DNA of 64,000 nucleotides. Origin: Isoetes taiwanensis. Lineage: Eukaryota; Streptophyta; Lycopodiopsida; Isoetales; Isoetaceae. A model generated the notes under the pieces. That model did no database searches and was not told the DNA's origin. It saw only the letters and a list, made by a program, of their open reading frames with translations. Of this stretch, positions 14,726-57,720 are shown one piece after another; the first letter of the stretch is position 1, and every line of letters starts with the position of its first letter. Where the stretch lies: assembly GCA_021234155.1 (NCBI GenBank), contig JAJEKV010000038.1, positions 4,896,847-4,960,846 of the forward strand. Reading direction: 5' to 3'. The position numbers and the translations under genes are program-made.

Positions 14726-14734
14726 TTGTATCTC

Positions 14735-15253
14735 ATGGAGTCGGGTTCAAGCGATGCAATTCCAGATTTGAGCAACAGAGGTTTGACCTTTAAGGAGTTA
14801 TATAAATCAGAGGAAAGGAATGTTGATGACAATGACATGCGGAGGATGTGGGGTCCAAAGGTAAATGGCAAGTCTTGTTACAGGTTCAGGTTGTTGAAAG
14901 AAAACAAGAAGGAGGAGTTCCTATTGCTATATAAGAAAATACATGATAGAAAGAAGGTTTTAGGAGGGCAGGTGCCTCAAGCATTGGCAGTAGCATTTCT
15001 CTTGCATTGCAATGGTCGTGGAAATAAATTGGATGAGTTTCTACAAGCATGCAAAGTCAGCAAAAAAGAGTAGAGCACTTTCAAACAAAGACTATGACGA
15101 TGGGCTGAAAACGGGACAACAAATGTTGTTTCTCAACGTACATTGTCTCCAATTCGCGCCGCTTGTTGAGAAGCCCTCTTCACAAATCTTTATTAGCTCT
15201 AATGTGACATGTAAGACCAAGGTGAATGATGCCAATTATGAAAAAAAGATACC
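14735..15253 (+). CDS. Unknown charged protein, possible exon pair
   Basis: A frame from the ATG at 14735 reads MESGSSDAIPDLSNRGLTF, contains MRRMWGPKVNGKSCYRFRLL and ends with a stop at 15071-15073. A second frame overlaps and carries on to about 15253 (KKSRALSNKDYDDGLKTG...KKIPG) before a GT donor, so a frameshift or alternative splice is likely. A splice acceptor (TGCATGTAG) lies just before 14726. The composition looks coding: charged, few rare residues. I do not recognise a domain. It may be the N-terminus of the coiled-coil/RING series that follows in the same direction. Confidence 0.4.
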
Positions 15254-16098
15254 AGGTACTACTTGATTCTTGTTTCTCTATTTTGTAGCTAATTTCTTAA
15301 CCACTGAGGTCATAGCAGCTTCTTATATTCAATTACTATGTTTATCTTTAGCTACATAAATTAATTTTTAGTCAGAGCTACATGGAGTTGAAGTAGTTGT
15401 TGTATTCATAGTTAGAGGCATGTTGTTGTAAGGTATAATTGCATGTTTTAAGCCAAAGTTGAAGCTCATAGGTAGAATCATGTAGTTATGAGTTGCAGCT
15501 ACAAGCTTAAGCTTAGTCACATGTTGTAGTTGATATTTACAACCATTTTGATTATTCCAAATGCGAGGTGCATTGCAGCTGAAGCTTACGCTGTTTGTTG
15601 CGGATGCACCACACCTTACTAGTTACAGGCCTCGGGTTTAGCCATAGTGCACCATGCCTTAGTAGTTGCAGTTTCAGTCACAGTCGTAGTGAGAGAGTGT
15701 ATCAGGCAGTTACAGCTTGCACCTTGTGTCTTCTAGCTCAAGTCACAGCTTGCAGCTTGTGTCCTATAGTTGCAGCTTGTGTCATATAGTTGCAGCTTGT
15801 GTCCTTTGCCATCGAGATGCTCTGAAGCTATAGGCCAAGCTTTTGCAGATCACCATAATGAGCACTCAAACTCTTGCTGATAGGCTGGTTAATCTTCCAG
15901 CCCATTGACTGATGTAATTCAAGTTTATTCACATCTAAAGCAATAGAGCAAAATGTTAGAGCTTTCTTTCTTTATACTAGATGGCAAGATGCTTGACCTT
16001 TTTTCAATAGAGCAAGATGTTTTGCATGTACTTGCACCTTCATTCCATCAATTGTTTATCTAATTTAAGATTCTAATTTAATTATCTCTTGTATTTCA
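15254..16098 (+). other. Probable intron
   Basis: AT-rich sequence with recurring GTTGCAGCTTGTGTC-like motifs at 15700-15810. No gene seen. It ends in a plausible acceptor (TGTATTTCAG at about 16099). Confidence 0.4.
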
Positions 16099-16099
16099 G

Positions 16100-17277
16100 A
16101 AATGTCAAGGATATTGAAGGAGTGGATTTCTACTGCAGAACATGATGTCAACAGGCTGACTATTGAACTGCAACTGAGCGAGGATAAGTGCAGTGTCATG
16201 AAAGAAAATATTAAAGGTCTAGAGGCTAGGGAGGTTCGTGTAGCCAATGACATTAAAAAGTACCAAGATTTAATCACAAAGCTCTCAAGTGCAGCGAAGG
16301 AGGGCGTTGAGGCAGTAATTGACCTACAAAAAAGGGAGCTTGAAGAGTTGCGTCTAGCTTTGAAGCAAGCTCTCGATGACTTATTAACTGTGGAGATTTC
16401 CAGAGATGTCGAGTTGGAGCAGCTAAACAAATTGAGACCCTGCCTTACAAGGCTTTTGGCATCTCGATCCAAAGATGTGCCAACCTTTTTGAGTTCGATC
16501 CTTGTTTGCCTACCCAAACACCGGCGTTGTTGATAGTTTGAAGGAAGCTTCGAGCATTAATTTGAGCGAAGCATGCCCATTTTGTTACAGGTCACTCAAA
16601 TCGGATGAGATGCTCTTGCCAATCATTATTGTCGAGTGCAGACACACATATCATGTGGCATGTTGCGTAGCGCATTTCAGGTAGCATCTTCCAATTTCAT
16701 ATGTTTCTGAATGAATTAATCTAACAAATATTTTTTTTGCAAAATTGCTCTACATTATGTTGTTATATTTAATTGTGGACATACCATGTCAAAATCATGG
16801 CTGCCGCTTTCTTGGATTAAAGGGGTGCGTGGAGTCAAGATTAGCATAACGCTAGATTCGCATGGTTGGTTTGTTTTCATTTATTTTCAGCTCACGCTAG
16901 GTACTTAATGATTGTTACTTACATATGGAAATAGAGAAATTGACAATGAAAGGTGTTAGCTCCACCCCCAAGATCCGTGATCATATCCCAAGGATCATAA
17001 ACTTATGCCGAGATGTTTGAGCACCGCACAATGCTGGGAAGGGCGTGATGGACAATATTTCTTACAAAGAGCGTAAGGACAATAATGGTAACAAAAGTTG
17101 TTAATATTTTCTAATGTGCAGGATTTTCAAAAAAATATGACCATGTGTATTTTATTATACATATGCAACACAGATAGTCAAGGGCAATCAACAACTGGTA
17201 TGGAAGTTCACGATAACTGCAAAAACCTGATTTCTGTTGAAGACAATGAACCAAACACTGCAGTCTTGTTTCCCCAA
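16100..17277 (+). pseudogene. Coiled-coil plus RING-like zinc finger exons
   Basis: An exon opening at about 16100 encodes about 130 residues of heptad-patterned helix (for example KRELEELRLALKQALDDLL), a likely coiled coil. Near 16500 the frame shifts by one base into a segment with CPFCYRSLKSDEMLL and VECRHTYHVACC, the first half of a RING/C3HC4-like finger, and ends at a GT donor at 16680. A second exon, about 17123-17277 (acceptor TGTGCAG, donor GTAATT), gives CILLYIC, which could supply the last Cys pair. RING fingers usually act as ubiquitin E3 ligases; here that is inference. The frameshift suggests a damaged gene. Confidence 0.5.
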
Positions 17278-18039
17278 GGTAATTATATGTAATTTTGCTA
17301 GGGTATTCTTTACACGGATCCGTGATGTAAAAATGTTTTAAGTTGTTTGACAGGTGGTTTGGTTAAACTTTAGTGGTAGTGTCCAGTTGCATGGTTGGTT
17401 AAACTGTAGTGCTAGGGTCATGTTGCATGGACTGTTACAGGGATGCAAGTGGTTTGACTTACTTACTTTGTTTATTTATGTTGGTTATTGTCACATCAGA
17501 TAATAGCACTAATGATGTAGTGTCTAAAGGCCCCCAACCGTAAGCCTCAAATGGGAAAGATGCCAAATTACACGGCCTCATCCCCTTTTGGAAAGAAACA
17601 TGATGTCGCAAATCCACCTAACAATGGAAAGACTGCTTCTTGTCGATCAAAATTAGCTAACTCCATTGGGCCAGGTAGTGTCTTAACTTTTGGATTGTAT
17701 AGTAATGACACATGATCATAACTGAGATGTAGCGGTTATCTATAGGAGACAATATAGTAGTTGTTGCGTGAAAGAATGACAATCTCGGTGAAGTTCGCAC
17801 TCCATCAGCAGTAGCCCAATCTTGAAGACAAGGAATGGAACATCTTATCCGTCATAATATGAAGAGTCCATTTCACCTGGTAAAATGTTCTCCTATTAGA
17901 TTGATTTTAAATTTATTTGTTTGAATATATGCTGAAATTTACATTCTCATCAGAGGGAAATACAATAAGTTTAGCAACCTGAAAAAAGTAAACTGGGGAG
18001 GCATTTGGTAGTCCTTCCATGTCCCCATGTACTAAAAGG

Positions 18040-18692
18040 ATCAAATCACACAAGAAGCTTCTTATTTTTGAGCTTGATGGTGTTTTGTTGAAGCTATTTG
18101 AGAATACGGAACCATTGCCCAGCTGTGTCATGGATGGTGCAGAACTAAAGCAAGCACCTCAATCATACAAAGTTAGCTGTGGTTAAGGTCCGAGGGCAAG
18201 GGATCTTCTAGATTGGTGTTTGGAGCACTTTGAGATTGTTTGTTTGGACAAGATTGAGCAGCACGGGCGCCAATCTTATTATTAATCAAATGTTTCAACA
18301 AGCCATCAAAACGTAAATTACATTTTACTTGGTCTTCGTGAAAGTGCACAAACACATCGTTCAAGATTGATAGAAAGCCTATTATGTTGAAGGAGTTGAG
18401 CAAGGTATATCAGGAATCAAAGGGAGTGTGGAATGAAAAGAATACATTGTTAATAGATGATATGCTGTACCATGGTTTCAAAAACAGTCCGCATTCAATG
18501 GTATGTCCCAATACTTACCAACCATCTCGAATAGATGGTGACTTCCTCTACGAACATTTGAGACCTTGGCTGGAAGGATTATTAGAAAATGAAAGTGTGG
18601 AAGTCTATGCGAAAGCAAATCCATTGACCAACTTTCTGGATAAGGTTTCTAAAAGAGCAGTGGACATTCTCAAGAAATATCGGTATCATTGA
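18040..18692 (+). pseudogene. FCP1/NIF-type phosphatase domain, degenerate
   Basis: The frame from about 18040 reads KKLLIFELDGVLLKLFENTE, matching the start of the FCP1-like HAD phosphatase domain (normally LDLDGTL). A TAA at 18184 interrupts it; it then resumes in frame as GPRARDLLDWCLEHFEIVCL, hits another stop near 18282, and continues after a frameshift as MLKELSKVYQES, NTLLIDDMLYHGFKNSPHSM and LRPWLEGLLENESVEVYAKA to the stop at 18690-18692. These match the family's order of motifs, including the conserved L-L-I-D-D. The catalytic nucleophile, the first Asp of DxD, is Glu here, and the WSS-like motif II is lost. So this is almost certainly an inactive relic. It lies downstream of the RING-like exons and might once have been the same transcription unit. 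Confidence 0.75.
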
Positions 18693-19948
18693 CATTGAGT
18701 GAGTGGAAGACTATGAAGCTCTGAAGTATTTTGATACGTGTCATTTGTACACGAATTAAATTGTTTTTGTTCAATGACTATTTGGCTTTTGCCTTACATT
18801 TGTATTTGGCTTTTGCCTCACATTTTTATCAAATGATGGTTTTCAGCAGATTTTTATGGAAATGCTTTGTTTATAGTGCAAATGGTAATGTGCATCTCTG
18901 CTTCTTCTTAGAACATAATGTGTATTGACATGGAACTGGCCCTGTAAGTCCCTGCATATTCATTGGACACTGCTGGTATTAGAAACTGTACTCCAAAACC
19001 ATGTGCAGAAGGAAAGATTGTACAGTATTTACATGGCAACACAAAGCATGTGCATATGAATGAAGCAAAGAAATTCGCTCGCATTTTGTAGATTGGAAGC
19101 GTGGAAAACATTAGATCCATATTTGCATCGAAGAGAGAATTGAGGTCTAGGGTGGATACTTAATATCCGAATGCTATCAAATTTAGAAAGATCATTCCCC
19201 GAAGTTGCTAATGGAATTGCTCATATCCAAAGCATACCCATTGTTTTCAAGACTTTTGTAGAGTCCTTGTGAGTAGCAAGCTAAAAAGATTAAGGCAATT
19301 GCTTTCACTAAATTATGCACAAGCATTTTGGTATCTAAACCCTATGCTACAAATAACATGGTTGAGGCTTTTGCATGCAATTAACTTGCTCAAATAAGCG
19401 ATTCAATAGGTAATGTCATGATGTAGAAGTCCTAAGTAGAAGTTGTGTTTACAAGTGAAGCATTTCTGAACTTGTATTAAAGAAAAACTTGTATTAAAGA
19501 AAACTTGTATTAATCGTGGTATTACAGGTGGAATGTTTTTTAGATGTTGCATGCTATGTCAAGCATGTATGTGCAAGAATAGCATATCTTTGAGCAAAGA
19601 TCTTTGAGCAAAGATCTTTGAGAATTGTATGGATCGGATCATTAGAATAATAACATCAAAAGGAAAATAGAAGTCAGAATTCAACAGAACTTAAAGACTG
19701 CTTCCTTTAACAGAACATAAACAATGAACACATATGTAAAACCATATTATATTATATTAGTCAACCTGTTTACAAAAATGCCATAAGGCTTTCACATACC
19801 AAAAAAAAAAACAGTTATATCATGATAAATCCGTCAACATTTTACAGGAACACCCAGTACACATATTCACAACCCTGTTCTGTAGCCGAAAAACTAAAAA
19901 ACATAAGATACTATTCTATACTTTATAGTAGACTGCAGATCACTCTAA
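18693..19948. other. Noncoding stretch
   Basis: AT-rich. It holds short local duplications (for example AAAGAAAACTTGTATTA at 19480-19510 and ATCTTTGAGCAAAG at 19590-19620). No supportable gene. Confidence 0.5.
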
Positions 19949-31616: not shown

Positions 31617-31735
31617 CCTCTTTCTTCTTCTTTCTTCTTTCTTCTTTCTTCTTTCTTCTTTCTTCTTTCTTCTTTCTTCTTTCTTCTTTCTTCTTTCTTC
31701 TTTCTTCTTTCTTCTTTCTTCTTTCTTCTTTCTTG
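31617..31735 (+). repeat. (TTCTTTC)n microsatellite
   Basis: Around 15 copies of a 7-bp pyrimidine unit, a polypurine/polypyrimidine tract that could form triplex DNA. Confidence 0.95.
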
Positions 31736-32183
31736 TGACTCTAATATAATGTGGCTGAAATGAAGGTTTTTGAAATTTTTCTAAGGTGTATAAAGGGGGT
31801 TATATCAAACCCCTTATGTACACATGACATATGCCTATATATGATACTGCAAGGGCACATTAATATGCAGATAACTTCAAGGTGCCAATTCTACATGAAA
31901 TGAATGCGGCAAGGCATATCTACATGCAAACAACTTTATCAGATTTTGTGGTCCGTGAAATGAATGACTTTTAGGCTGTTTAGTGACTGGATCCTGCAAA
32001 TTTGTGGTTTATTAAATATGTTGTTTCTGCACATTGGAAGGCTTTGGTGGTCGGATTTCGATCAGGCAAAGAGATATTTGTACAAGTAAGGCATGTATAC
32101 ACTCCAACAGATATGGCAAAAGAGAAAATAAGCAAGCGACGAACTTTCCCACGGTTAGAAGCAAATTATGAGTATGTACTTCT

Positions 32184-32987
32184 ATGCAATCCATATTTAA
32201 ATTAGTTCAGTTACTTATCCAATTCCTTCCTATTCTCTCAGGTTTGTGTATATCTGATGTGGAGAACATTGTCTCTTCACACTCGATAAGTAGTGTATTC
32301 CATTGCTTTCACCAAGATATGGGCTGCTTGTTGTTCGAAGGTAGCATACCAGTACAGCTCAGAGAAAGGGGTATATGGTTCTGGAGGTATGAATACTCTC
32401 CACGAAGATCCAAGCTAATTGAGCTTCCATTGCCCAGCATGTCCGATTTATACTATAGGCCTCTGGATGCCACTTCTATCTTATTAGCACGGAGTAAGTT
32501 GTCGCAGGAAATGTTCACGGCATTGAAGGAGAAGGGAGGAGTCTGCGGGCATGTGAAGATAAATTTAGGAATTGATCTGTTCATTGCCATATTCAAGAGC
32601 GCCGACAATGTAAAGAAGACCTTGAAGATGTTTACTGTTCAACAGTCGGTGGATAGTTTTTTAGATAGTGTATTTCTTGAATGTTGGAGTGCTCGACTTC
32701 ACGATGGAGCTGAATGTACTGAATGCAGGATAAGCCGAGACACGGTTCGGTTCAGATATTGCATTCGGAAGCAAACTCTGTATGTCACTTTTAAGTATAG
32801 GAGATGGCGAAATGTCCGTGAAGGAAGAATGCACGTCTAGATTCCTGTCGAACAAGATGACAATGATGGCACTCATTCCGTTGTCATAGACTTGAACATT
32901 CATAAGGATAATCAGCTGTTCAAAAGTCTGAGAGCGGAGAGCGAGTGGTCTCTATTCGATGTTCGGCAGCAATTAGAGTTTGAGTAG
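32184..32987 (+). pseudogene. Unknown ORF in the hairpin-punctuated cluster (ORF 1)
   Basis: From the ATG at 32184 the frame starts with a hydrophobic stretch (FKLVQLLIQFLPILSGLCIS) that could be a signal peptide, although it overlaps a plausible splice acceptor at about 32240. It goes on through FHQDMGCLLFEGSIPVQL and ALKEKGGVCGHVKINLGI to a TAG at 32838-32840. The same frame stays open beyond it (IPVEQDDNDGTHSVVIDLNI ... RQQLEFE) to 32985-32987, so the TAG looks like a recent nonsense change in a protein of about 267 residues. No family recognised. A hairpin array follows 200 bp downstream. Confidence 0.4.
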
Positions 32988-33206
32988 ACGGCCAGAAGGT
33001 GGGAAAGCGCAGAGAAGAATGCTATAAATTGGGGTCATGCATGCCACCCAAAGTCATATCTGTATATGAATCTATCTAATATAAATATAAGTGATTGTTA
33101 ATTGGAGATCTATTGTATATTAATTGCAAACCGGGAGTTTTCATTGGAATATAAGACTTAAAGTAGCCATGTTGCGAAATTATGTACAACATAAATTGTG
33201 GATGTG

Positions 33207-33575
33207 TTTTCACACCGTACTTACGGTGCGAAATTGTGGATCTCATAAAATATGGAAGGGCCATTTTCGCACCGTAGCCACAGTGTGAAAATGTGCATAG
33301 CATAAAAAATGAAAAGGGTATTTTCGCACCGTAGCCACGGTGCGAAATTGTACATACAATAAGATATTGAAGGGTTGTTTTCACACCGTAGCCACGGTGC
33401 GAAAATGTACATAGTATAAAAAATGGAAGGGGTATTTTCGCACCATAGCCACGGTGCGAAATTGTAAATAGAATGAATTATCGAAGTCCTGTTTTCGCAC
33501 CGTAGCCACGGTGCGAATTTGTGCATAGCATAAATTAAGGAAGTGTTATTTTCGCATCGTTACCACGTTGTTAGT
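33207..33575. repeat. Hairpin array A
   Basis: Seven copies, about 57 bp apart, of a palindrome: stem TTTCGCACCGT, loop AGCC, stem ACGGTGCGAAA. The best copies are at about 33321, 33379 and 33491; others have one to four changes. The stem is GC-rich within AT-rich spacers that share ATAGCATAAAAAATGGAAGG-like sequence. Confidence 0.9.
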
Positions 33576-33649
33576 CTCTCTTGCAAATCAAGCCGCTACA
33601 AAGGCGCTCACATTCTAAGTGTCATAAATCGAGGCGCTGCTCCACGAGA

Positions 33650-35161
33650 ATGGCAAATAGCGGGTCAGATAATGCATGGGAGCTGTTTAGCGCATGGTAT
33701 GACAAAATAGTGGAGAAAGAACGGGATTTTCGTCAGAAGCATCCAGAAGAGTTCGAGGAGGAGCTAGAGGAACCAGTGGATGCAACCACTGTATATAATA
33801 ATTTTTGCCTGAGCGTAGACATTATGGCGAGTGTAACGTTTTTATCGATGCATATGGCGGCATCCTTCATAGCTTCATGGCTAGAGCTGGTCCTGACGTG
33901 AAACCATGTCCTGTGACTGGTTTGCCTTCACTAAGCATGCAAGCTTTAATTAAGATGTTTCCGAAACTTGATCAAGACCGAATTAGAAGGTTCTTGAAGA
34001 AACTGCCTGCAGAACTGTGCAGGCAAGAGGGCAAGGAAAGTTTTTTCGGCCTAGATATCATGTTCAGCACATACATGATTTACACTAAACCAAGCAAAGA
34101 TGCCAGTTCTTCTTCAAGTGCACAGGTCGCTCAAACAGAATGCCCCGCCTCGCTAGTAGAGGAGCTGATAGACCCTGAGGAAGAGAAGCTCATACTGGAA
34201 AATGAGGAGAACGAGGTTGTGGAAGAGGAGGTCTCCGAGAAAAAAATTGTCTAATTGGGAGTTATCAGAAGCATATCCCATCCATGTAGGTGGGAAACCA
34301 TACTTGTTGCTACCAGACATATCTGAAGTGACAGGGTTGAGAGAAGACGAGATATTGGTCCAGATATATGCGCATGTTGTAGGCCTGGGAGGACTTATAG
34401 ACTTTGAGACTGATGTCTCCAGACAAATGATGGAGGCTGTGACTTATGATGGATCCTCAATACCTCCAGAGGATGCATTTGAAATTGTCATGCAGCAAGG
34501 CAAAGGTGGTATGAAGCGCTGAAAGATGTCAAATTTGAAGCCGGTAGCTCTTCAAACACCGATCCCTGTTCATAGAATGTCTTGTTTGTCCAGTCCTCTT
34601 TCAAAATAACAAACCCAGCTGTTGTCGACCGGGACAAGAGAGAGGTATTTATCTAGTTTCATTTTTTATTTCTTCTTGAATCTGATGTTTCTTTTATGCA
34701 GGAGTTATTTATTGATGACTTCTGTGCAAGGCATCAGAGAGTCACCCTAGGTTGGGATGCCAGTATTGCACATTATATGGGCTACCTTCACAAGGGAGAA
34801 ATTATTGTGTTTCACACTAAATATAGTCCATATGGAGTACAGGAGGTCCTCAAGCTTAAAGCTCTGTCCTTAGCTGACAACCACGTGCCCCTAGCTGCAA
34901 ACTATGATCGAGTTATAGCAGTAGATAGGGCTATCGCCATGTATGTCTTCGGGGGCTTCAAAATATACCCTGTCCTTGCAAATAAAGCAGCTCTAGGCTT
35001 GAGTAGCGGACAAGAAAACACTGCGCTTGTCCTGTGCACAGAAGGACCCTGACATATTATATCTGTTAGATTCAATTGGGGCTGGAGTAAAGGAAGAGGA
35101 CTTAGAAGAATTTGATTCGGGTACTCCAGGCCCTGATGCCAAGAAAAGGAAATGTACTTAA
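33650..35161 (+). pseudogene. Unknown two-exon gene in the cluster (ORF 2)
   Basis: ATG at 33650 reads MANSGSDNAWELFSAWYDKI. Frameshifts near 33800, 34240 and 34525 must be bridged to follow one protein through GYECNVF-like, MQALIKMFPKLDQDRIRRFL, an acidic Glu-rich linker, and YLLLPDISEVTGLREDEILV. A clean intron (donor GTATTT at 34645, acceptor TTATGCAG ending 34701) leads into ELFIDDFCARHQRVTLGWDA and VIAVDRAIAMYVFGGFKIYP. After one more shift the end is GTPGPDAKKRKCT at 35159-35161; AKKRK could be a nuclear localisation signal. No family recognised. Intron retention argues against a processed copy. Confidence 0.4.
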
Positions 35162-35344
35162 AAAACTTTTGTATTAATATAATGTCTTTTCTATAAAATT
35201 CATGAATTGTTTTTATATGACAAAATTGCTTTTGTATGAATGTTCATCTATGATATTCAATAATTGTTAGAATTCAATGTCAGCAATAAATCCTTGTTAG
35301 ATGTATATGTTAGGTCTTCTTTAATGATGAATTCAGTCATTTCC

Positions 35345-35435
35345 ATGTATGTACATCAGGAGCATACCCACGGTGCGAGAACAGGATGTCGGCAGTTTTT
35401 GGACTGCCCGATTTTCCACCGTGGCTACTATGAAC
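35345..35435. repeat. Degenerate hairpin block B
   Basis: Contains CCCACGGTGCGAGAA and TTTTCCACCGTGGCTAC, which are half- or worn copies of the hairpin seen in arrays A, C, D and E, at the same relative place after a gene. Confidence 0.55.
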
Positions 35436-35515
35436 ATTTTTTAGTCTAGGGGTCTATGGGATCGGGACAGACAATATTGCTTATTTGAATTTCTTCTCCT
35501 TGCTAAAATCCGCTC

Positions 35516-36135
35516 ATGTCCATGGAAGGCGCTAGCTCTGAAATCCCACAAAATGAGGCGCTTGACCAGCGCCAGAATATTGACGAGGTCATTACTAGCA
35601 GTGCCGAGACTGCTATTACCATCACAGAGCCCGAGACAGTTATTCCCATCACAAGCCAGCAGATGGACGCAAATGAGACTGTCCTTCCAGAAGGGTTCGG
35701 GCAAAGCCTTGGAAATGTCATCCACACTATTAATAATAGTGTGGACGAATATTTCCAAAACCCGAACATGTTTCCTACTCGGGTCTCCTTGTTGAGTGCA
35801 ATGTTTTTGGGGAAGGAGTTTTCCGTGAGGCCACTGTCTGCCACAATATTCCAGTTCCAGACGACTGTATTGTGGTATCAGTGGACACAGCTCTGGATCC
35901 AACAGCCAGTCTGCCCTTCCCCACCCTTGGAGCGAAGATAGTAGAGGAAGCCATCGGGTCATACGTCATGTGGCCCAGGTTAATGACATACATGTCCGGC
36001 ACGGAGACACGGCCATTCCAGTTCTTGTGTAATGAGTTGGATTATATCATGAAACCACAGGGGGGGCCTTCTACACATGGCCGTCTTTGTGGCGAGTTGA
36101 CCAGAGGCCATGCATGGTGCCCGCTGGTCATTTAA
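35516..36135 (+). pseudogene. DUF8039-like ORF in the cluster (ORF 3)
   Basis: ATG at 35516 begins MSMEGASSEIPQNEALDQRQ, a low-complexity acidic N-terminus, and reaches about 35800 before a one-base shift. The downstream frame reads VFGEGVFREATVCHNIPVPD, CIVVSVDTALDPTASLPFP and EEAIGSYVMWPRLM, then ends at 36133-36135. The pattern (G-x-V, H-x-x-P, V-x-V, LP-x-P, EA-x-G-x-x-V-x-WP) resembles DUF8039, a domain attached to plant CACTA-type transposon proteins. That assignment is from memory of the pattern and is moderate. If right, at least this ORF has a transposon link. Confidence 0.4.
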
Positions 36136-36619
36136 TCGTGTACCCCCTCGCCTAATACGCTGGGACCACGATCGCCAGGAAAGTGAGGGGAGGAACGAGA
36201 GCACGAAGAGAATCTGCTAGGGCAGCAGCGGATTATGGAAGTGCAAGATGATCGCGATCACCGACCAAAGATGATCAGCCAGGATCACCTGACCAGCAAG
36301 ATCGAAGACCAAAGACGACAAAGATGAATAGACCAAAGATGATCGCCAGGATCGTGGTGATCACGGGCAGCCCCGGGCCAAAGTGGAGCAGTAATAGGAA
36401 GCCCATTTCCTACAGAAGCGAAATCCACGCCGGCTAAATCTGCCCCAAAGAAAACCTCCTAAGCTTGTTCCTAGTTGGAGACAAGCCGAGAGATGCCCCA
36501 AGGAGACAGATAAGCTTGGGAATAAGCTAAGTCAAGGAAGGGGAGCCTAGCGCGATATGGTGGCCCCGAGAAGATAAAGGGTGCTCCTCCCGCACTGTGC
36601 TTTAAGGGAGATTAGGTAA
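36136..36619 (+). other. Spacer before the histone-like ORF
   Basis: Holds repeated GATCGCCAGGATC / CCAAAGATGATC motifs (36250-36365). One frame has a short Lys/Ala/Pro stretch (TEAKSTPAKSAPKK at about 36412-36455) reminiscent of a histone tail, but stops separate it from the histone-fold ORF. No gene claimed. Confidence 0.4.
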
Positions 36620-36625
36620 TTGGCA

Positions 36626-36958
36626 GGCACGCACCGACCTCGATTCCCCAAGCTTGCCTTCGCTAGAATGGTCAGGTACGAGATGCAAGCCATTATTGAC
36701 AGGAGGAAGGAATCAAGGAGGAAGAGGAGGGAGAGAGCACCAGACTTCGTCCTGATGGTGGAGGAGGAGGTGAATAGAATCCAAGCAGAGGCCTTGGATA
36801 TACTGCAAGAGGCAGCAGAGGCTCATCTAATTAGCCTCTTTGAGGACAGTGTCCGCTGTTGTATGCATAGAGGACGTGTTACTGTGCAGGACAGGGACTA
36901 TGCCTTAGCTAGATACTTCCGTGGATGCCTCCCTTCTTTTTTGGTTGTTAATATATGA
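36626..36958 (+). CDS. Divergent histone H3-like protein (ORF 4)
   Basis: The open frame gives FPKLAFARMVRYEMQAI (H3 alphaN-like), then about 19 extra, very basic residues (DRRKESRRKRRER), then EALDILQEAAEAHLISLFED (alpha 2, nearly H3: ALQEAAEAYLVGLFED), CCMHRGRVTVQDRDYALARY and FRG (H3: [22 protein letters not shown]), ending at 36956-36958. Core H3 positions LQEAAEA, LFED, H, RVT, D and LAR are kept. The start is unclear: no ATG precedes the alphaN helix in frame, the first internal ATG is at 36669, and a CAG acceptor sits at 36625, so an upstream tail exon is possible. H3 wraps DNA in nucleosomes; the longer alphaN-to-alpha1 region is unlike canonical H3 and longer than in typical CENH3. 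It may be a novel variant or a captured gene. Confidence 0.7.
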   Translation, partial: GTHRPRFPKLAFARMVRYEMQAIIDRRKESRRKRRERAPDFVLMVEEEVNRIQAEALDILQEAAEAHLISLFEDSVRCCMHRGRVTVQDRDYALARYFRGCLPSFLVVNI

Positions 36959-37044
36959 GTGTTTTAATATTTATCGTTATGAGTGTTTTATATTTATCTG
37001 TAATTATTTGCTATTCTATTTATTGCGGCTGTGTATTTATCTAC

Positions 37045-37190
37045 TAGTGTTGACCGTGGGCACGATGCGAAAATGACTATTCCACATTCTGTGGGAAGGT
37101 CTATTTCGCACCATCGCCAAGGTACGAAAATAGTAGTTCCAAAGTTTTTGGAAGGCGCAATTTTGCACCGTGACTACGGTGCGAAACAGA
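37045..37190. repeat. Hairpin array C
   Basis: Three worn copies about 55-60 bp apart, for example TTTTGCACCGTGACTACGGT followed by GCGAAAC at 37151. It follows the histone-like ORF by about 90 bp. Confidence 0.75.
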
Positions 37191-37405
37191 CTGTTCCACA
37201 CACTGCGAAGAGAATGCTTATCTAAAATTGGAATCTACATGTAAGGAAAATGGCCAAGAGTTTTCCAAATTGAAAATGTGCGGTAAATAGATGGATCACA
37301 TGTATCACTTGTGGTTACATACTTATAACTAGCGAATGTCTGAAATATTCTAGTAACAGAATTTAGAACTCATATAAGAGGCATAGCATACATGAATGCA
37401 GAAGT

Positions 37406-37690
37406 TCATTCGCAATCGGGATCATCATGAGCAGGTAGTTGAGCGATGCTATTAATCTCATAGACGCGACGCTCTGGAACCCGATGAAGGTGGATAACAA
37501 CACGATAAAACCCGGAGGAAGAATGATTTCGACCCTCTGCTACTCCTTCCAGCCAGGGATCAAGGGGGATACCCCTCTGAGAACATCTATAAAGATCATT
37601 ATATGTCATAGTACAAGTAATGGAGTCTATATCTTCGGGACGAGGAGGCAAGGTAGATCCCCTGTAATAAGAATAACCAGGCCGAGACAT
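37406..37690 (-). CDS. Small unknown ORF
   Basis: A minus-strand frame with ATG at 37690 reads MSRPGYSYYRGSTLPPRPED and continues through YRVVIHLHRVPERRVYEINS to a stop at 37408-37406 (94 residues). The composition is plausible for a protein and the start is a real ATG. It is the only minus-strand candidate inside the cluster. No domain recognised; a plus-strand frame overlaps but looks random. Confidence 0.35.
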   Translation of the reverse strand: MSRPGYSYYRGSTLPPRPEDIDSITCTMTYNDLYRCSQRGIPLDPWLEGVAEGRNHSSSGFYRVVIHLHRVPERRVYEINSIAQLPAHDDPDCE

Positions 37691-37839
37691 AGCAAATGGA
37701 TGCCTTCTGCATTGAATGGAGCTGTACTTATATCGAACAAATTATTGACATGTACTGTAGCAGCATTATTGGTTATATATACGAGCATAATGTACAAAAT
37801 ACACATGTAAATATAATGTATATACCTGGTTTCTCTTTA

Positions 37840-38030
37840 AATAGCCATCTATGCCTTCATTGTCTTTGTCTGCTTCTTGTTTGCATGCTCCGTGCCTCCC
37901 TGTCCGCTTCTTGTTGCTCTTTGCCTCCCTGTCTGCTACTTGCTTGCATGCTCCTTGCCTCCCTGTCTCCTCCTTGTTTGCTCCTTATTCAGTAGCTTTG
38001 TTGTTCCTTGTCTGCTCCACTAGTTTCTTG
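37840..38030 (+). repeat. CT-rich leader repeats before ORF 5
   Basis: Imperfect repeats of TTGCTTGCATGCTCC / TGCCTCCCTGTCTGC. A similar pyrimidine-rich block precedes the paralogous ORF 6 at 39.1-39.5 kb, so leader and ORF were duplicated together. Confidence 0.65.
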
Positions 38031-38033
38031 CAA

Positions 38034-38602
38034 ATGGTAACTTTGCAAGAACATCCTCGCTGGGCTGATCCAGAATACCTGCAAGCATGCGGCAAATAAA
38101 TATGTGCATTTTTGATGAATTTTTTAGCAACTTTTGGGAGCATCGATGGCGGCACGGTCCAACCACAGAGCTTGCAAGGCAGCTGATTAACTTCATTATC
38201 GATCGCTATACTCGTCATCTCCCTCCACTGCAGGAGATCAGTTCGAGTCATGCAAGGATCACTCTAAGTGCTTTGGGACTTCTTGAACCCCCCTCAGATT
38301 TAGAAGATAGGCTAGAAAAGTTGAAGGACATGCTTTTCCATGGTTTCATGGCCTACTCTCTGGATCACTATGTACCTCTGGTCATTCCTACTAGTGAAAA
38401 GAATAGGATTTATATCCTCATTGAACTTTACAACTTCCATTACAAATCTTTTGTGGATATTGGTAAGCTCCTATTCCGTTCCCTTGACTTCAACATCCCG
38501 TGGTTACTGTCTAAATTCCCCACCTGGGATACAATTCCTTGGGATACACGTGACCTATGGCTACATAGCACACAGCACATAATACATACATATCACAGGT
38601 AA
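38034..38602 (+). pseudogene. Unknown ORF, paralogue of ORF 6 (ORF 5)
   Basis: ATG at 38034 (context TTGCAAATGG) reads MVTLQEHPRWADPEYLQACG, then a one-base frameshift near 38090 leads into FDEFFSNFWEHRWRHGPTTE, LARQLINFIIDRYTRHLPPL, LGLLEPPSDLEDRLEKL, FHGFMAYSLDHYVPLV and DTRDLWLHST, ending at 38600-38602. It aligns end to end with the ORF at 39515-40117: Q-A-C near the start, T-x-ELA-x-x-LINFI, LEPP, A-x-SLD-x-Y and DTR-x-LW are shared. Family unknown. The frameshift suggests the copy is broken. Confidence 0.5.
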
Positions 38603-38804
38603 AGATACTCCATTGGAATATGTGTATAAACTGGTATAAAGATTTTTATAGAAATTAAGTATATAAGCAAGTGATTTCCGTGTAATTAAGTAACATCCTT
38701 ATATTATCATGTATTATCTTGGCAATCTTACACTTTTAGTGTAATTGAATGATCTCTTCTACCATTTTCCTTGTATTTTCTCATGTGATTGTTCTATTTG
38801 TGGT

Positions 38805-38995
38805 CATATTCGGCACCGTAGCCACGGTGCGAAATCGCCTCAGTTACAAATTATTGAAGGGCCTATTTCGCACCGTGGCTACGGTGCGAAATACGTGGAT
38901 CCAGTTTAGTTACAGGTCCATCTTTCGCACCGTAGCCACGGTGCGAAATCGACTCAGTTACAAATTATTGAAGATCCTATTTCGCCACCACCGAA
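38805..38995. repeat. Hairpin array D
   Basis: Four copies about 57 bp apart; three are perfect palindromes (about 38811, 38868 and 38925). The loop alternates AGCC, GGCT, AGCC, so successive hairpins are reverse complements of each other. Spacers alternate between TCAGTTACAAATTATTGAAG and TGGATCCAGTTTAGTTACAG, making a dimer of about 115 bp. Confidence 0.9.
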
Positions 38996-39099
38996 TGGTA
39001 TAATACTTCAGCATTATTCGTATTATTCTTCAACATCTTGGTATTATACTTCAACAGTATTAGTATTATACTTCAACATTATTGGATTCGTAGCTATAA

Positions 39100-39512
39100 A
39101 TTCTTTCACCTTGCTTTCACTTCTCACCTTTGTTCCATGTTTTCACCTTGCTTTCACTTCTCGTGTTCTCACCTTGCTTTCACTTCTCACCTTGTGTTCC
39201 GTGTTCTTCCTTGCTATTTGATCTTGATCCTTGTTCTTTGCTACTTCATCTTCGTGCTCCTTCATGCTACTTGATCTTGTTCCTTGCTCTTGATCTTGCT
39301 ACTCGATCTTGTTCCTTGCTTCCTTGCTCCATGATCTTCCTTGTTCCTTGATCTTCTTGCTCCTTGCTTCTTGCTACTTGATCTTGATCCTTGTTCCTTG
39401 CTACTTGATCTTCGTGCTCCTTGCTACTTGGTCTTGTTCCTTGCTTCTTGCTCCTTGTTCCTTGCTCTGCTCCTTGTTCCTTGCTCCGTCGTTGATCCTT
39501 GCTTGCTTTTGC
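39100..39512 (+). repeat. CT-rich leader repeats before ORF 6
   Basis: Repeats of CTTGCTACTTGATCTTG and TTGCTTTCACTTCTCACC. Reading frames run through it, giving Leu/Ser/Cys-rich low complexity. It ends just before the ORF 6 start codon, so it may be 5' UTR. Confidence 0.7.
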
Positions 39513-39514
39513 AA

Positions 39515-40117
39515 ATGATTGGACCCAATCCTCCCTGGGCTACTCTAGAAGGCCTGCAAGCATGCCCCAGGCATTATGTGCGGCCTGAAACTGATGAGCT
39601 ATTTGACCATTTCTTGGAGTGGAGGTTGCACCACAGTCCCACCAAGGAGCTTGCAATGGAGTTGATCAACTTCATTCTGGAGCGATTTGATTGTGGTCAT
39701 GAGCCACTGATGGAAATTAATCCATCTGAATGTTATAGGAGACTTGCAATGAGGGGAATTCTTGAACCCCCTCCTTATCTGGACGAGATGCTACAGCAGT
39801 TGAGGCCTCTTCTTTGTGCTGGTTATTTAGCACACTCTCTGGATCAATACATATTAGAGTTCATTCATGAAATTTGTAAGGGACAGATGTATGGCCTTAT
39901 TAGAACGTACTACAAGGAGTACAACAACTTTGTGGAGTTGGGGCCGCTCTTCTTCCGTAAGTATCATCATGTGGAATTATTTTTTCTAATAACTAGGTAC
40001 CCTATATGGTGGGAAGAATCAGGCTGGGATACGCGTGAGCTCTGGTTTCCTAACCCAAATATGTGGGTTACCCCGCAGGGGAAGGGAAAGGGGAAGGGGA
40101 AGGGGTTAGGAACCTAG
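39515..40117 (+). CDS. Intact unknown ORF, paralogue of ORF 5 (ORF 6)
   Basis: ATG at 39515 (context TTGCAAATGA) gives about 200 residues without interruption: MIGPNPPWATLEGLQACPRH, then FDHFLEWRLHHSPTKELAME, LINFILERF, ILEPPPYLDEMLQQLRPLL, AGYLAHSLDQYILEFIHEI, NNFVELGPLFFRKY, GWDTRELWFPN and a basic Gly-Lys tail (GKGKGKGKGLGT). Mostly helical, no signal peptide or membrane segment. An in-frame extension to 39341 runs through the CT-rich repeats and is discounted. This is the only plainly intact gene in the cluster; function unknown. Hairpin array E follows about 150 bp after the stop. Confidence 0.6.
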   Translation: MIGPNPPWATLEGLQACPRHYVRPETDELFDHFLEWRLHHSPTKELAMELINFILERFDCGHEPLMEINPSECYRRLAMRGILEPPPYLDEMLQQLRPLLCAGYLAHSLDQYILEFIHEICKGQMYGLIRTYYKEYNNFVELGPLFFRKYHHVELFFLITRYPIWWEESGWDTRELWFPNPNMWVTPQGKGKGKGKGLGT

Positions 40118-40264
40118 GGGAAGGTTACTAGGGACATACTGCCGTGGTCTCTAGTAACCTTTGCTATCTATCATACATAATTCATATGATACCGTGTTAA
40201 TATGTTCTCTAAATGTTCTCTAATATGTTAATATGTTCTCTAATATGTTAATATTCTCTAGTTA

Positions 40265-40860
40265 CAGGCCCATATTTTGCCTTTGTAGCCGGTGCGAAAT
40301 CATTCGATTTAAATTATTGAAGGGCCTTTCGCATTAACCACGGTGCGAAATCGGATTACAACTTATTGAAGGGCCTATTTCCACCGCGTGGCTACGGTCA
40401 TTACGATATTCTCTAGTTACGAGGCCCATATTTCGCACGTAGCCCGCGGCGTAAATCGGCCGAGATACAAATTATTGAAGTGCATATTTCGCACCATAGC
40501 CAATGATGCAAAAATCATTCGATTACAAATTATTGAAGGGCCTATTTAGCCCGCACCGTGGCTGCGGTCGCAAATACGTGGATCGGCTTAGTTACAGGCC
40601 CATATTTTCGCATCGTAGCCACGGTCGCGAAATCGATTCGATTACAAATTATTGAAGGGCCTATTTACTTGAGCCACTAGCCCGCGATGCGAAATCATTT
40701 CGTTACAAATTATTGAAGGGCCTATTTCACACCGTGGCTATGGTGCAAAATACGTGGATCCAGTTTAGTTACAGGCCCATATTTCGCACCGTGGCCACGA
40801 TGCGCAATACATGCATCCAGTTTACTTACAATACAGCATTTCGCACAGTGAGCACTATCG
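40265..40860. repeat. Hairpin array E
   Basis: About ten copies at roughly 57-bp spacing, many worn by small indels, with the same alternating spacers as array D. The best copies include CATATTTCGCACC-type starts near 40486, 40605 and 40786. Confidence 0.85.
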
Positions 40861-41104
40861 AACTGATAAATAAACCAACTCTTTTACAGTAGAGACATTA
40901 TCAAGAGCTCTCAATACGGACATAACCTTTGCCTTGCCTACATCTCATTGATCTCCACTCCCTTGATCGCTCAACAGCTGCGGACTTATACCAAGCTTCC
41001 CTCTTTTTTTCCCGCTAGTTTTTTTGTCTAAACAACTTAGCAAGTGTTGATTCACTCTGGTTCCGTGATTTCTTCACCCATTTGGAGACGATCCTTCTGT
41101 AAAA

Positions 41105-43525
41105 TCATTGACACATCTGCTGTAAGGAATTCCCAACTGAACCTCTGTGTTGAGTGAAAAGGAAGAATGCATTCTTTGCTTGCTTATGGGACTTCTCCAT
41201 TCCCTGTGTATTCCAAATTCCCAGGCTTCCATATTCCCTGACAAACCACACGCCATGTGCGAACAGAATATGGACATAGTGAGTCAAATTGGCCTCACCC
41301 CATGCCGTCAGGAAAGACTTAGTGAAATTTGTGACTGCCTCCTGGAATTTGGCAACATCATTTCCTGCACTACCTTTTTCTGCATTTCCTTTACCAGTAC
41401 AGAGAAATCCTACCATGCCTTGATTTTCTTCAGGCGTGATCTACCACATTCATTTCGATCATCCTCAGCTGCAATAAGATCCTCGTAAGCTTCCCAAACA
41501 CCAGATAAGTTCTCTTTCGCGGGAGGCAAAAACCTCTTAGCCTTTGGACCACCCATACTGGGTTTCAGGGGAGCCTTGCCGGATACCTTTGGATCTTGAA
41601 GTATGTAGTGCCCACATGAAGTCCCACATTAGATAGCACCTTTTCAACTTCATGCATGGCAGCTTCCCTAGAGCTTTGGGGTGATTTATTCCAAGCAAAC
41701 AGGATACTCATGTAAACCATCTTGTCTATGATTCTCAAGAAAGCATGAAGGGTGCATATGTGTACTCTTTTTAACGGAATTGGTAGAATTGGCATCAAGG
41801 TTGTGTCCTTCTCTTCTCTATTTGGTGGCTCATCCTGGATACAGTCTAATGTACTCTTGTCCAACCCAGCTGAATCTCTTCTCGCATAGAGACAGTAGGG
41901 ACAAGCATGAGTAGTCTTACCAGCACCATGCTTCATTCTGTACATGCATTTTATTGTCTTCAAATCTGCAGCAAGATGCCATTCAACCTCGTACTCACCA
42001 TATCCAGGAACTGCAAGTTTTTCTCCGATTCCGTGAGAGGTAATCATTGTGGGGATGGGTGTTTGATCAAAAATCCATTTCAGTATACTGTGATTTTCCT
42101 CTGGTACCTGAAATAAACCAACCCACCAAATGTGATCTTCAGACTGGACGGAAAACTTACCATCTAGATTTGACTCTTCATTCCCTGTATTCAAAGCTCT
42201 GTTCATTAGACTCAGTGAAACACTCTCGTACTTCTCGCCTTTCACCAATTCCATTTCATCCAGCTTCAAAACAATTCTTAGTTTGCCAGCGCACTCTTCT
42301 ACCTTCATGTCATAAAATCGAACCAAAAGCTGAAGCATTCTACTTAAGTCTATCCAGCAATTGTTATTTTCATTAAGGCAGAAAGTATCACCAAACTTCG
42401 ACTTCTTCTTACCTTTGGTATAGGATGGCCATGTATCCAAATTGACACTGCTGGTCAGCTGATACATATCACCAAGAAGCTCTTGCACTTGTCTGTTTCT
42501 CGATGACCTACAAGTCCTCACAGTAGTCATCCTTGGTAGTAGAATAGTTTTGGTAATGCCTTGTTGTTTAAGGCCATCCTGCAAGCATCTGAACAAAACA
42601 ATATAAGCTTGCCTACTTATTCCGACATTGTCACACAGTTCTTGCACTGATTCTGAGGTTTGACTGTTCCCCAACTCCTGCAACAGTTGCTGTACTACAG
42701 CTTTCCTAAGTTGAATGCTACCAGGAAGCTTTAACATTCTCAATACATCATCTTTAGTAACTAATTTCTTTAATAAACTGGCAATATTAGCAGGTTTTCT
42801 CTTATTTTCTTCTGCAAGATTTGGATCAACAAGCTTTTTAATAGCCATGACCTTTTTTTTTGAGCCTCCACCCCCAGGGGCTAATATATTTATGGGCTTC
42901 AGGTTTCTTGCCCTCTCCCTGATCCCTAGTGGAGTTCTTTTCATTCGTTTGGCTCGCTTGTGAAGGGAGTCATTTTCTTGTGCAACCCTCTTCATCCTTG
43001 CTGCAGTGATTTCATCTCCGTCACCAATTTTTGATTTTCTACCTCCAATTCATTGAGCTTGCTGCATTGTTGAGACAGCAAGTAGTTCGCCTGTTGGAGC
43101 TGATTAACATTTGATAAAACTTTGCAATTGAATCCATACAAGTGGTTATACATGGCACGCAAATGTGGATCAGTATTACCATTAACTAAATTATTACAGT
43201 AACCTAGTAACCCTTGCTGTCCCTTACAAGCAAATTCAATAAGACCGGATGCCGAGTGCAAGTTTGGATGGGCTCGAGTGAAAGGATCACAAGGATACAG
43301 TTGGCCCTTAGCCCAGAGGTCTATATTCATGGCTCCAGAAGCTCGCAATGCATCTTCATCTATTGATTGCTTCCAAGTGAACTTATTCCTGTAAGGCAGG
43401 CATCCTTTTGGCACTTGCACTCTAAATTGACCCTCGGAATTAGTTTGATCCTGAAACAGAATTATTAGAACCAAGAACACTCAAAGGAATGCAATGACAA
43501 CTCGGAAACCAAATACCTTCGCCAT
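41105..43525 (-). pseudogene. Second transposase-like gene (decayed)
   Basis: A short first exon (MAK, ending at a donor near 43517) joins DQTNSEGQFRVQVPKGCLPY at about 43450. A helical region (LNELEVENQKLVTEMKSLQQ) passes a one-base shift at about 42995 into KRVAQENDSLHKRAKRMK and a 470-residue open frame to 41565, with VRFYDMKVEECAGKLRIVLK, EWHLAADLKTIKCMYRM, HACPYCLYARRDSAG and KRVHICTLHAFLRI. After more shifts, HYVHILFAHGVWFVREYG and NTQGMEKSHKQAKNAF appear at 41416-41105. The order DLK, CxxC, LHxxL, then H-I-L-x-H and G-x-E-x-x-H matches uncharacterised transposase-like proteins of animals and non-seed plants. It differs from the first family. Several frameshifts make it inactive. Confidence 0.5.
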
Positions 43526-43571
43526 TGACGTTGCAAAAGACTGAGAACCGGAGTGGAGCTTAGAATTAGAA

Positions 43572-43627
43572 AGATTCTTGCCAACAAACAGAGCGAAACA
43601 TATCGCTCTATTTGCTGGCAAGAATCT
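43572..43627. other. 56-nt near-perfect hairpin
   Basis: AGATTCTTGCCAACAAACAG on the left pairs with CTATTTGCTGGCAAGAATCT on the right, and AGCGA / TCGCT extend the stem around an AACATA loop. The stem is about 25 bp with two mismatches. It lies about 50 bp upstream of the start codon of the minus-strand transposase-like gene, so it could be a subterminal repeat, a 5' UTR structure or a small-RNA precursor. Confidence 0.7.
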
Positions 43628-43654
43628 GCCATAATTCGAATTCAAACAATGCTT

Positions 43655-43770
43655 TGGGCGCGATGGCAAGATCGTTGGCGCTCGATGGCGCGATGGCAAG
43701 CTCGATGGTGCGAGGGCAAGCTCGATAGCAAGCTCGATGGCGCTGAAGCTCGATGGCTGAAGCTCGATGG
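43655..43770 (+). repeat. Short tandem repeat CTCGATGGCG
   Basis: About eight copies of a 10-14 bp unit with core AAGCTCGATGG. Confidence 0.8.
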
Positions 43771-43829
43771 TGGGAAAATAAAAATCTTAGATGTAATCAT
43801 CAAATATTCAGGTCGTTAGGAAATAATGA

Positions 43830-45441
43830 TTGCAAAGTTAGGTACGAGGTTAGGTTCGGAGGGGGGGAAGTTAGGTTAGGGGAGAGTGAAAGTTAGGTAT
43901 GGAGGGGGGAAAGCTAGGTTCGGGATCCTACGTGGCGGCCCTCCTAATATATTCTTACAAGGCCCTTATTTGACCTCAAAAAAACTCTAATGGACAGTAA
44001 TACGCTTGCTGCTCTCTTTTTGTTTGGGTCCCATAGGCCAATTGGTCTTCATGGACGATAAAAAATCTATTCTATTCTATTCCATATGCCATCATAGGTA
44101 CAACACACTATTAAAAGTTATCTTTGCTTATACCACCATAGGCATGACCATTCTCTTCCTTCCCTTTTTTTGTAACAAAATTTGTTTTACCTATGCAAGT
44201 ATAAGCGTAGATATATTATGTGTTTCCAAAAGCATCTACACTTTGCTAGATTTTATTTTATCATGTCTTCTAGTTGTATCATTAAGTCTTTTATTTTATG
44301 TTGTAGCAAGTATGGAGGGCTTTTATCCCCATGGAGAAGATTCATCTCCTCATACAAATGTTTATTTGCTGGAGCATGGTAGATACTGTATACCGGCTTC
44401 TCTAAGTAGACTCATCATTGTTGTCCTAGCTTTATCTACACCTGAAACACCTCCATTACATAACATACAAACCACATCCCCTCAAAAATGAAGAAAAGTT
44501 GTAACAACAATTTTTATGTCTTGCTGGACTGCACATCTTATTGAGTTTTGTAATTTGAATAAGGTCCTATGCGCACATAGATTTGTGTTATTTTATTGTA
44601 CCAATAACATGCTTGACAACCTTGTTTGTGCTTTTTGTAATCATGTGTATAAATTAATATCATCGTGCCTTGCAAAGAACCTTCATATGAGCTTTTCAAA
44701 CTTTGGTTCTTATATCATTTATGTACTCCATATCTTTTTATCTAGTTTTCCAAAAAAAGACAAATACGTTAAAATTATTCTAGTACATAGACCCTCAAAT
44801 GGATTTTTTCCGTTTTTAATATGTAAATTTTCTTCTTTTAACCCCCCAAAATGGCACCGCACTCCTAGAAAATAGGCCTTCTTTTAAAGTTCGAGGCCAA
44901 AACTAGCATATTTTGGGGAAATCTTAGGGAATATTCTTTTATTAATGCAACTGCAGGTCATTAGTGCATTTGCTAGGTCGCCTTGTTTTCTGTGATGGAA
45001 TTAGGAACCCTAAAATCCTACAGGGTGGTTTCCATGGAACGGAGATTTTGGATTGAGTACTTTGTGTTTTGCAGAGTATTCTTGCCAGAGACCATAGACA
45101 GATCGATGCCACATGTACGACAGTGAATTTCTTATTTCAAGTCCATGGTTGAATCCAATGGCTCAGGTCTTTTACTAAAAAAAATAACAAAGCGATTAGG
45201 ATGTAGTGATGGCTTAAAATTTCCTAACGACAGGGCTCGCGTGCACAAAATTTCCTACTGAAATTTTAAGGTCATTGAAATTACTTCTTCCTTAAAAGCA
45301 AACTCAAATTTACATTGCATGTTGAATGTTTTGGACAGTCATGCAGAACGACTAAACACACATAAGTTACAAAAAAATGTGCTTCATGTCGGAATTTCCT
45401 CCTCTTCAATTCCCGATTCAAACAAGACGTAAGTAGTGTTT
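43830..45441. other. Stretch without a supportable gene
   Basis: Open frames at 44006-44491 and 44516-44875 (plus) are hydrophobic because the DNA is T-rich; they show no domain. A GTTAGGTTCGGAGGGGGG-like repeat occurs at 43850-43925. Confidence 0.5.
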
Positions 45442-56156: not shown

Positions 56157-57720
56157 GCACATGCCACGTAGGCTCCAACATGCCACCTAGGCTCCAACAT
56201 GCCACGTGGGCTCCAACATGCCACCTGGCTCAGCATGCCACCTAGGCTCCAACATGCCACCAAGGCTTCAACATGCCACGTGGGCTCCAACATGCCACCT
56301 AGGCTCCAACATGCCTCGTGAGCTCTAGCATGCCACCTAGGCTCCAACCTGCCACCTAGGCTCCAATATGCCACCTAGGCTCCAACATGCCAAGGTGGCT
56401 CCAACATGCCACCTAGGCTCAAGCGTGCCAAGGTGGCTCAAACATGCCACATAGGCTCCAACATGCCATGTAGGCTCCAACATGCCAACTAGGCTCCAAC
56501 ATGCCACGTGGACTCCAACATGCCACCTAGCATGCCACATAGGCTCCAACATTGCCACCTAGGCTCCAACATGCCACCTGGGCTCCAACATGCCACGTGA
56601 GCTCCAACATGCCAAGTTGGCTCCAATGTGCCACCTAGGCTCCAACATGCCAAGGTGGCTCACAACATGCCACCTAGGCTTAAATATGCCAAGTTGGCTC
56701 AAACATGCCACCTAGGCTCCAACATGCCACCGCGTGGCTCAACATGCCACCTAGACTCAAACATGCCAAGGTGGCTCAAACATGCCACCTAGGCTCCAAC
56801 AAAGGTGGCTCAAACATGCCACATGGGCTTCAACATGCCACCTAGGCTCCAACATGCCAAGGTGACTCAAACATGCCACATGGGCTCCAACATGCCACCT
56901 AGGCTCCAACATGCCATCTAGGCTCCAACATGCCAAGGTGTCTCAAACATGCCACGTGGGCTCCAACATGCCAAGGTGGCTCTAACATGCCAACTAGGCT
57001 CAAACATGCCAAGGTGGCTCCAACATGCCACCTAGGCTCCAACATGACAAAATGGCTCAAAACATGCCACCCAGGCTCCAACATGCTCAAACATGCCATG
57101 GCCTCCAACATGCAACCTATGCCCAACTTGCCAAGGTGGCTCAAACATGCCACTTGGGCTCCAACATGCCACCTAGGCTCCAATATGCCATCTAGGCTCC
57201 AAAGATGCCAAGGTGGCTCAAACATGCCACCTAGGCTCTCCAACATGCCACGTGGGCTCCAATATGTCAAGGTGGCTCTAACATGCCACCTAGGCTCAAA
57301 GATGCCAAGGTGGCTCCAACATGCCACCTAGGCTCCAACATGACAAAATGGCTCCAACCTAGGCTCCAACGTGCTCAAACATGCCACGTGGGCTCCAACA
57401 TGCCATCTATGCTCCAACTTGCCAAGGTGGCTCAAACATGCCAAGGTGGCTCAAACATGCCAAGGTGGCGCAAACAAGCCAAGATAGCTCAAACATGCCA
57501 CGCGGGCTCCAACATGCCACATAGGCTCCAACATGCCATGTGGGCTCCAACATGCCAAGGTGGCTCAAACATGCCACCTAGGCTCAAACATGCCATCTAG
57601 GCTCCAACATGCCACCTAGGCTCGAACATGCCAGGTGGCTCGAACATGCCAGGTGGCTCAGACATGCCAAGGTGGGCTCAAACATGCCACCTAGGCTCAA
57701 ACATGCCACCTAGGCTTGAG
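56157..57720 (+). repeat. About 20-bp minisatellite, CATGCCACCTAGGCTCCAA
   Basis: Roughly 75 copies, with common variants CATGCCAAGGTGGCTCAAA and CATGCCACGTGGGCTCCAA. Long open frames on both strands come from the repeat. The core TGCCACCTAGGC is shared with the 161-bp array at 20.6-21.3 kb. Confidence 0.95.

Follow-up and report, generated by a model that had tools for sequence, protein, structure and literature searches.

The genome of the lycophyte Isoetes taiwanensis contains a stretch of 64,000 nucleotides (assembly GCA_021234155.1, contig JAJEKV010000038.1, positions 4,896,847 to 4,960,846 of the forward strand; hereafter the window) that raises the question of why six plus-strand open reading frames (ORFs) alternate with blocks of one and the same GC-rich palindrome. 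A reading made from the letters alone (the sequence-only reading) had offered three origins for positions 32184-40860, namely an undescribed large transposon, an old segment derived from a DNA virus, or a satellite seeded between the genes of a tandem family. The present analysis identified the cluster as the inside of a roughly 13-kb, multi-gene, many-copy DNA transposon; the order previously given, ORF1, array A, ORF2, block B, ORF3 and ORF4, array C, ORF5, array D, ORF6 and array E, is correct, with six ORFs and five palindrome blocks. As to function, we lean, with moderate confidence, towards the palindromes being DNA sites for an anti-silencing protein encoded by the element, with possible involvement of the histone H3 encoded by ORF4.

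Genome searches covered the I. taiwanensis assembly (1,658,258,908 bases in 1,110 contigs), and copies of the element were sampled as 20 stretches of 10 kb around clustered palindrome matches, which gave 10 loci after neighbours had been merged. Homology to the window starts at position 32018 in seven of these loci and at 32014 in one, the exceptions being L011, which starts at 32295, and L028, which starts at 35409, the edge of its stretch. At the other side, homology ends at 43992-43995 in eight loci; L018 was cut at 43886, with the terminal motif present farther along, and in L028 homology continues to the limit of the stretch sampled. Rearrangement is evident in L015, whose pieces occur in both orientations. 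The borders common to most of the loci delimit a left-truncated copy in the window at 32018..43992 (plus orientation); the interval originally noted is too short as a unit, because the element extends as far as 43992 and takes in a transposase-like gene on the minus strand. Six copies retain both ends, measure 12,317-13,230 bp and are bounded by 32-bp terminal inverted repeats (CATTAGAG...CTCTAATG) with CA..TG termini, the two repeats being identical over 32 bp in three of the six. Seven copies reach their left terminal motif 531-543 bp further out than the truncated left border of the window copy, which lacks approximately 540 bp at its left end, including the left terminal repeat. The right terminal inverted repeat of the window copy (43961..43992, minus strand), when reverse-complemented, is identical to the left one in copy L026. 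A search with the 32-nt terminal pattern, allowing up to three mismatches, yielded 425 matches in the genome (206 + 219), and the reversed control yielded none. Terminal inverted repeats around many dispersed copies, the hallmark of a cut-and-paste DNA transposon, were thus found together with a transposase-like gene, and the first of the three proposed origins is supported. With regard to a viral origin, scans of viral contigs with ORF1 and ORF2 gave no relatives, these scans reaching close relatives only. Our searches of the literature showed no description of this transposon.

The transposase-like gene occupies 41105..43480 on the minus strand and is frame-broken in the window copy; copy L013 holds a 797-aa open frame. 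Residues D408, D506, C527xxC530 and H574x4H579 are invariant in the nine aligned rows that cover them, and E763 is present in four of five rows, the rows being 51-89% identical to the first. The order D, D, C(2)C, H(4)H, E is, by motif only, that of the CACTA/EnSpm-Mirage-Chapaev-Transib (CMCT) transposases. The ratio of nonsynonymous to synonymous divergence (dN/dS) is 0.08-0.15 in the four of 15 pairs for which it was computable, with dS saturated in three of these four. The transposase-like proteins showed no Pfam or PDB match to a transposase and no match to the Pfam Mutator-like element (MULE) family, and the AlphaFold2 model, with a mean pLDDT of 41, was set aside for the question of an RNase H-like fold. 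Target sites were compared for 14 insertions, comprising six copies of the window family (family 1), the diverged element L031 described below, and seven putative insertions defined by two terminal repeats at a distance of 4-38 kb; in these last seven, the ends were paired by position and orientation alone, three of them lying 21-38 kb apart. A flank match of at least 3 bp was found in none of the 14 and a match of 2 bp in one, which is near chance. Of the terminal repeats and target duplications that the sequence-only reading had suggested looking for, the former were found in the six copies with both ends and the latter were not. By motif, the family is related to the CMCT clade, but it lacks the clade's target duplication at the sites compared.

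Three diverged relatives provide a comparison for gene content and gene order. L031 spans 8,252 bp between CATTAG ends with imperfect repeats, and its transposase and ORF1 relative are 52% and 50% identical to those of the window family; at a threshold of E 1e-3 it matches none of the remaining ORFs, and palindromes are absent from it. By eye, ORFs at L031:4415-4960 and 5800-6156 resemble a zinc-binding part of a retroelement and a piece of an ABC1-like kinase. C1026 and C919, neither read from end to end, have transposases 66-69% identical to those of the window family. C1026 contains ORF1, ORF2, ORF5, ORF6, ORF3 and H3 at 32-79% identity, and C919 contains ORF5 (93%), ORF6 (83%), ORF3 (44%) and H3 (38%), with no ORF1 or ORF2 within the 11.8 kb read. 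In both, the ORF3-H3 module is moved and inverted, such that it adjoins the transposase gene in the same orientation and faces ORF6.

The plus-strand genes of the window copy are partly interrupted. The main exon of ORF1 (32172..32986) carries an in-frame stop at 32838-32840, and a 310-aa open frame is found in copy L023; ORF2 (33653..35052) is interrupted, and a 398-aa open frame is found in copy L021, with a relative of 40-54% identity in C1026. ORF3 (35510..36135) has a relative of 49% identity in C1026 and may form the N-terminal portion of the histone gene. ORF5 (38069..38602) is a paralogue of ORF6 (35-40% identical), and ORF6 (39515..40117) has 151 matches in the genome. The absence of homologues anywhere had been named as a finding that would count against the proposal: the ORFs other than H3 do have relatives inside the genome, and outside it none were found with the tools used.

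ORF4 (36620..36958), described earlier as histone-like, encodes a divergent histone H3. The histone fold is indicated by Pfam matches (PF00125, E=5.3e-13 for the window protein, and 2.4e-15) and by PDB matches to H3 and CENP-A chains; the best PDB match of the window protein is the CENP-A cnp1 (E=2.3e-12), and the first match of the C919 protein is an ordinary H3. Between helix 1 and helix 2 lies an insertion of approximately 15 residues in the C919 relative, according to the alignment, and of approximately 23 residues, by eye, in P0004. The median dN/dS of 0.34 shows, as far as substitution ratios tell, that the element H3 is under purifying selection.

The palindromes themselves are concentrated within the element. 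With up to three mismatches allowed, the window has 19 occurrences of the core pattern GCACCGTNNNNACGGTGC, of which 18 fall at 33212-40803, compared with a mean of 0.77 and a maximum of 4 in shuffled sequences. Array A (33164..33571) has seven units, block B (approximately 35355..35428) has two decayed units, and arrays C (37047..37186) and D (38809..38985) have three units each; array E (approximately 40280..40850) is partly decayed and lies between the convergent 3′-ends of ORF6 and the transposase gene. Counted with up to seven arm mismatches, a threshold that one unit of block B passes, the window holds 20 units, and the earlier description of a perfect 26-nt hairpin was too strong, since the arms are perfect in only three of these (33322, 38866 and 38923). 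The first units of A, B, C, D and E lie 221, 303, 89, 207 and 208 bp past the preceding frame end; for array A, the longer ORF1 frame, which ends at 32986, gives the 221 bp, and the distance from the ORF1 stop of the window copy at 32840 is 368 bp. Among eight aligned copies, all have A, B, C and E and six have D, with varying numbers of units. No unit was found in these copies within the ORFs, the terminal regions or the transposase gene, or upstream of ORF1 or the transposase gene (reversed control, two matches in total), and no array lies between ORF3 and H3, which are possibly one gene.

Across 197 units in 11 sequences, 106 of the 143 intervals of up to 250 bp are exactly 57 bp, and 146 of the 197 units are imperfect. 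Between the arrays of the window, palindromes are 0.67-0.87 identical and spacers 0.20-0.61, as in the comparisons of A with D (0.87 vs 0.34) and A with E (0.79 vs 0.20); the contrast is smaller between D and E (0.81 vs 0.61), within A (0.89 vs 0.70) and within C (0.58 vs 0.55). In C1026 and C919, the steps are 57 bp and once 114 bp, plus one step of 68 bp in C1026. Between families (10 units from the window and seven from family 2), the arms are 0.83, the core 0.90 and the spacers 0.27 identical. Covariation of the stems was absent: among 2,167 pair cells, 30 two-sided changes were counted against 34.2 expected, and eight of the 30 were paired.

In the loci sampled, the palindrome is tied to the element. 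The 20-nt core, with up to two mismatches, gave 1,603 forward and 1,607 reverse matches and none for the reversed control; only two central bases distinguish the pattern from its reverse complement, so that many sites are counted twice and their number is smaller than the sum of the two. Eight loci on five contigs were sampled at exact matches, two of these loci overlapping; every one contains 1.6-3.0 kb of element sequence, and hairpins scattered without a link to the ORFs, which the sequence-only reading had named as contrary evidence, were not seen in this sample. A satellite seeded between genes is unlikely, because all eight loci are element and L031, which lacks ORF2-ORF6, has no palindromes. 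The rearranged gene orders extend this picture: in C1026, palindromes follow ORF1 and the transposase gene and lie between the convergent ORF6 and H3, and in C919 they follow the transposase gene and ORF5 and lie between H3 and ORF6. One weak unit (six mismatches) was found inside the H3 gene of C1026. The claim that every gene is paired with a 3′ array thus holds in part, in that the link to gene 3′-ends survives the changed order, but arrays are missing after ORF2 and ORF5 in C1026 and between ORF3 and H3.

The retention of both arms and of the spacing, the freely diverging spacers and the absence of covariation together are easier to reconcile with DNA sites bound by a dimeric protein than with stems in RNA. 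In the proposed mechanism, the transposase would cut at the CA..TG ends, and each palindrome would serve as a DNA site for an accessory protein encoded by the element, probably bound as a dimer. Binding along the non-coding spaces might keep host silencing off the element genes, by analogy with VANC in VANDAL transposons. The H3 that the element encodes may contribute, by forming distinct chromatin on it. A stronger version, in which the accessory protein on the 57-bp arrays recruits the element H3 and thereby marks gene borders with nucleosomes unreadable by host silencing, appears improbable to us. Several observations weigh against the proposed anti-silencing sites. Apart from H3, no ORF of the element reached the Pfam cut-off; the median dN/dS of ORF6 is 0.82, and codon-position divergence among the eight aligned copies showed no third-position excess, except weakly in H3. 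Part of the conservation between families reflects the choice of units by their arms, and the spacers were compared without gaps; C1026 lacks arrays after two of its genes, as stated above. The motif of VANC21 is short and in one orientation within arrays, whereas that of the element is long and palindromic. Finally, positions at gene 3′-ends would also suit an RNA or insulator role, and of the 445 stem changes confined to one side, 95 result in a G-U pair, which an RNA stem could tolerate.

These last points are shared by the explanation that the palindromes act in the transcript, where stem-loops would set or protect RNA 3′-ends and the convergent pair would share array E. Arrays follow gene 3′-ends in both gene orders, and in the eight aligned copies units are absent from the ORFs, the terminal regions and the sequences upstream of ORF1 and the transposase gene, as this explanation would have it. 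However, the earlier idea of RNA 3′ hairpins finds no support in stem covariation, a 3′ hairpin needs neither an exact 57-bp spacing nor tandem units, and diverged families retain the sequence of the arms; we consider a role in the transcript unlikely, if still worth weighing. Somewhat less probable in our judgement are sites for transposition or replication, such as internal binding sites for the transposase or origin-like iterons: the recurrence of spaced palindromes tied to one element family is in keeping with such sites, but the arrays lie inside the element, with none in the terminal regions of the eight aligned copies, and L031 has none despite its related transposase and CATTAG ends. 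Least probable is a functionless, passive satellite carried by the element and homogenised by unequal exchange. It would account for the varying unit numbers, the imperfection of 146 of the 197 units and the 0.70 identity of spacers within array A, which is expected from exchange; between arrays and families, however, the spacers diverge freely while arms and spacing stay, which counts against it because homogenisation would carry the spacers along.

H3 genes of a second type are also present in high copy in the same genome (L074:1-1545, L075:209-1531 and L076:208-1596). A search with canonical H3 gave 150 scored matches of 9,022 candidates, of which 15 are host-like (96-98% identical) and the other 135 are 71-86% identical, six of them with a stop; many of the 135 belong to open frames 400-567 aa long. 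The three second-type genes read each join H3 to a protein of approximately 300 aa without a Pfam match, and the fusion has no detectable likeness outside its H3. These data suggest that H3 was captured more than once in this genome. Beside one fusion (L076:1754 to L077:1398) lies a pair of ORFs, approximately 480 aa in total and split by one stop, whose likeness to ORF2 is not significant and whose likeness to ORF5 is weak.

Other repeats were noted in and around the element. In the C907 copy (L011-L012 joined, 13414-15081), the transposase gene is longer by approximately 1.67 kb at the point corresponding to window 41839-41841, likely through a nested insertion. A perfect 7-bp repeat, TTCTTCT, is present in 15.7 copies at window 31625-31734; its end lies 284 bp from the element's broken left border. 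A 19-bp tandem repeat (ACATGCCACGTAGGCTCCA; approximately 82 copies, 75% matches) occupies window 56159-57716, in a stretch of strong GC skew. Window 14730-18694 belongs to another repeat family, because pieces of it show 74-87% identity to the DNA next to the L009-L010 element copy.

Among known systems, the CMCT clade is characterised by 5′-CA..TG-3′ termini, by C(2)C and H(3-4)H motifs between the second D and the last E, and by a target duplication of 2-5 bp (PMC12730594). The element shares the termini and the motif order; it differs in lacking a consistent 2-5 bp duplication at the 14 sites and in carrying extra genes, including H3. The same source places Lanisha (Repbase Reports 2020), an EnSpm-like lineage, in the CMCT clade and groups Spy transposons with PIF/Harbinger (PMC12730594); Lanisha and the element may be one and the same lineage. 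VANC proteins bind motifs in tandem repeats of the non-coding regions of VANDAL transposons and remove silencing (PMC5735166, PMC10398659). The VANDAL elements of Arabidopsis are likewise multi-gene, with family-specific motif arrays in non-coding regions; unlike these MuDR-type elements, the present element has no match to a MULE-type transposase, and it has a long palindrome at 57-bp spacing and a histone gene. Certain fungal DNA transposons encode TET/JBP dioxygenases, a captured chromatin gene that is thought to counter silencing (PMC12730594); here the captured chromatin gene is H3 rather than a dioxygenase, and the host is a plant. The element is directly testable, because well over a hundred copies reside in one sequenced genome. 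Transposons carrying demethylases or anti-silencing factors are already known, and one combining a constrained nucleosomal histone with motif arrays at its gene borders would represent a new route for handling host chromatin; if the arrays did recruit the element's own H3, they would be a transposon-scale counterpart of a centromere.

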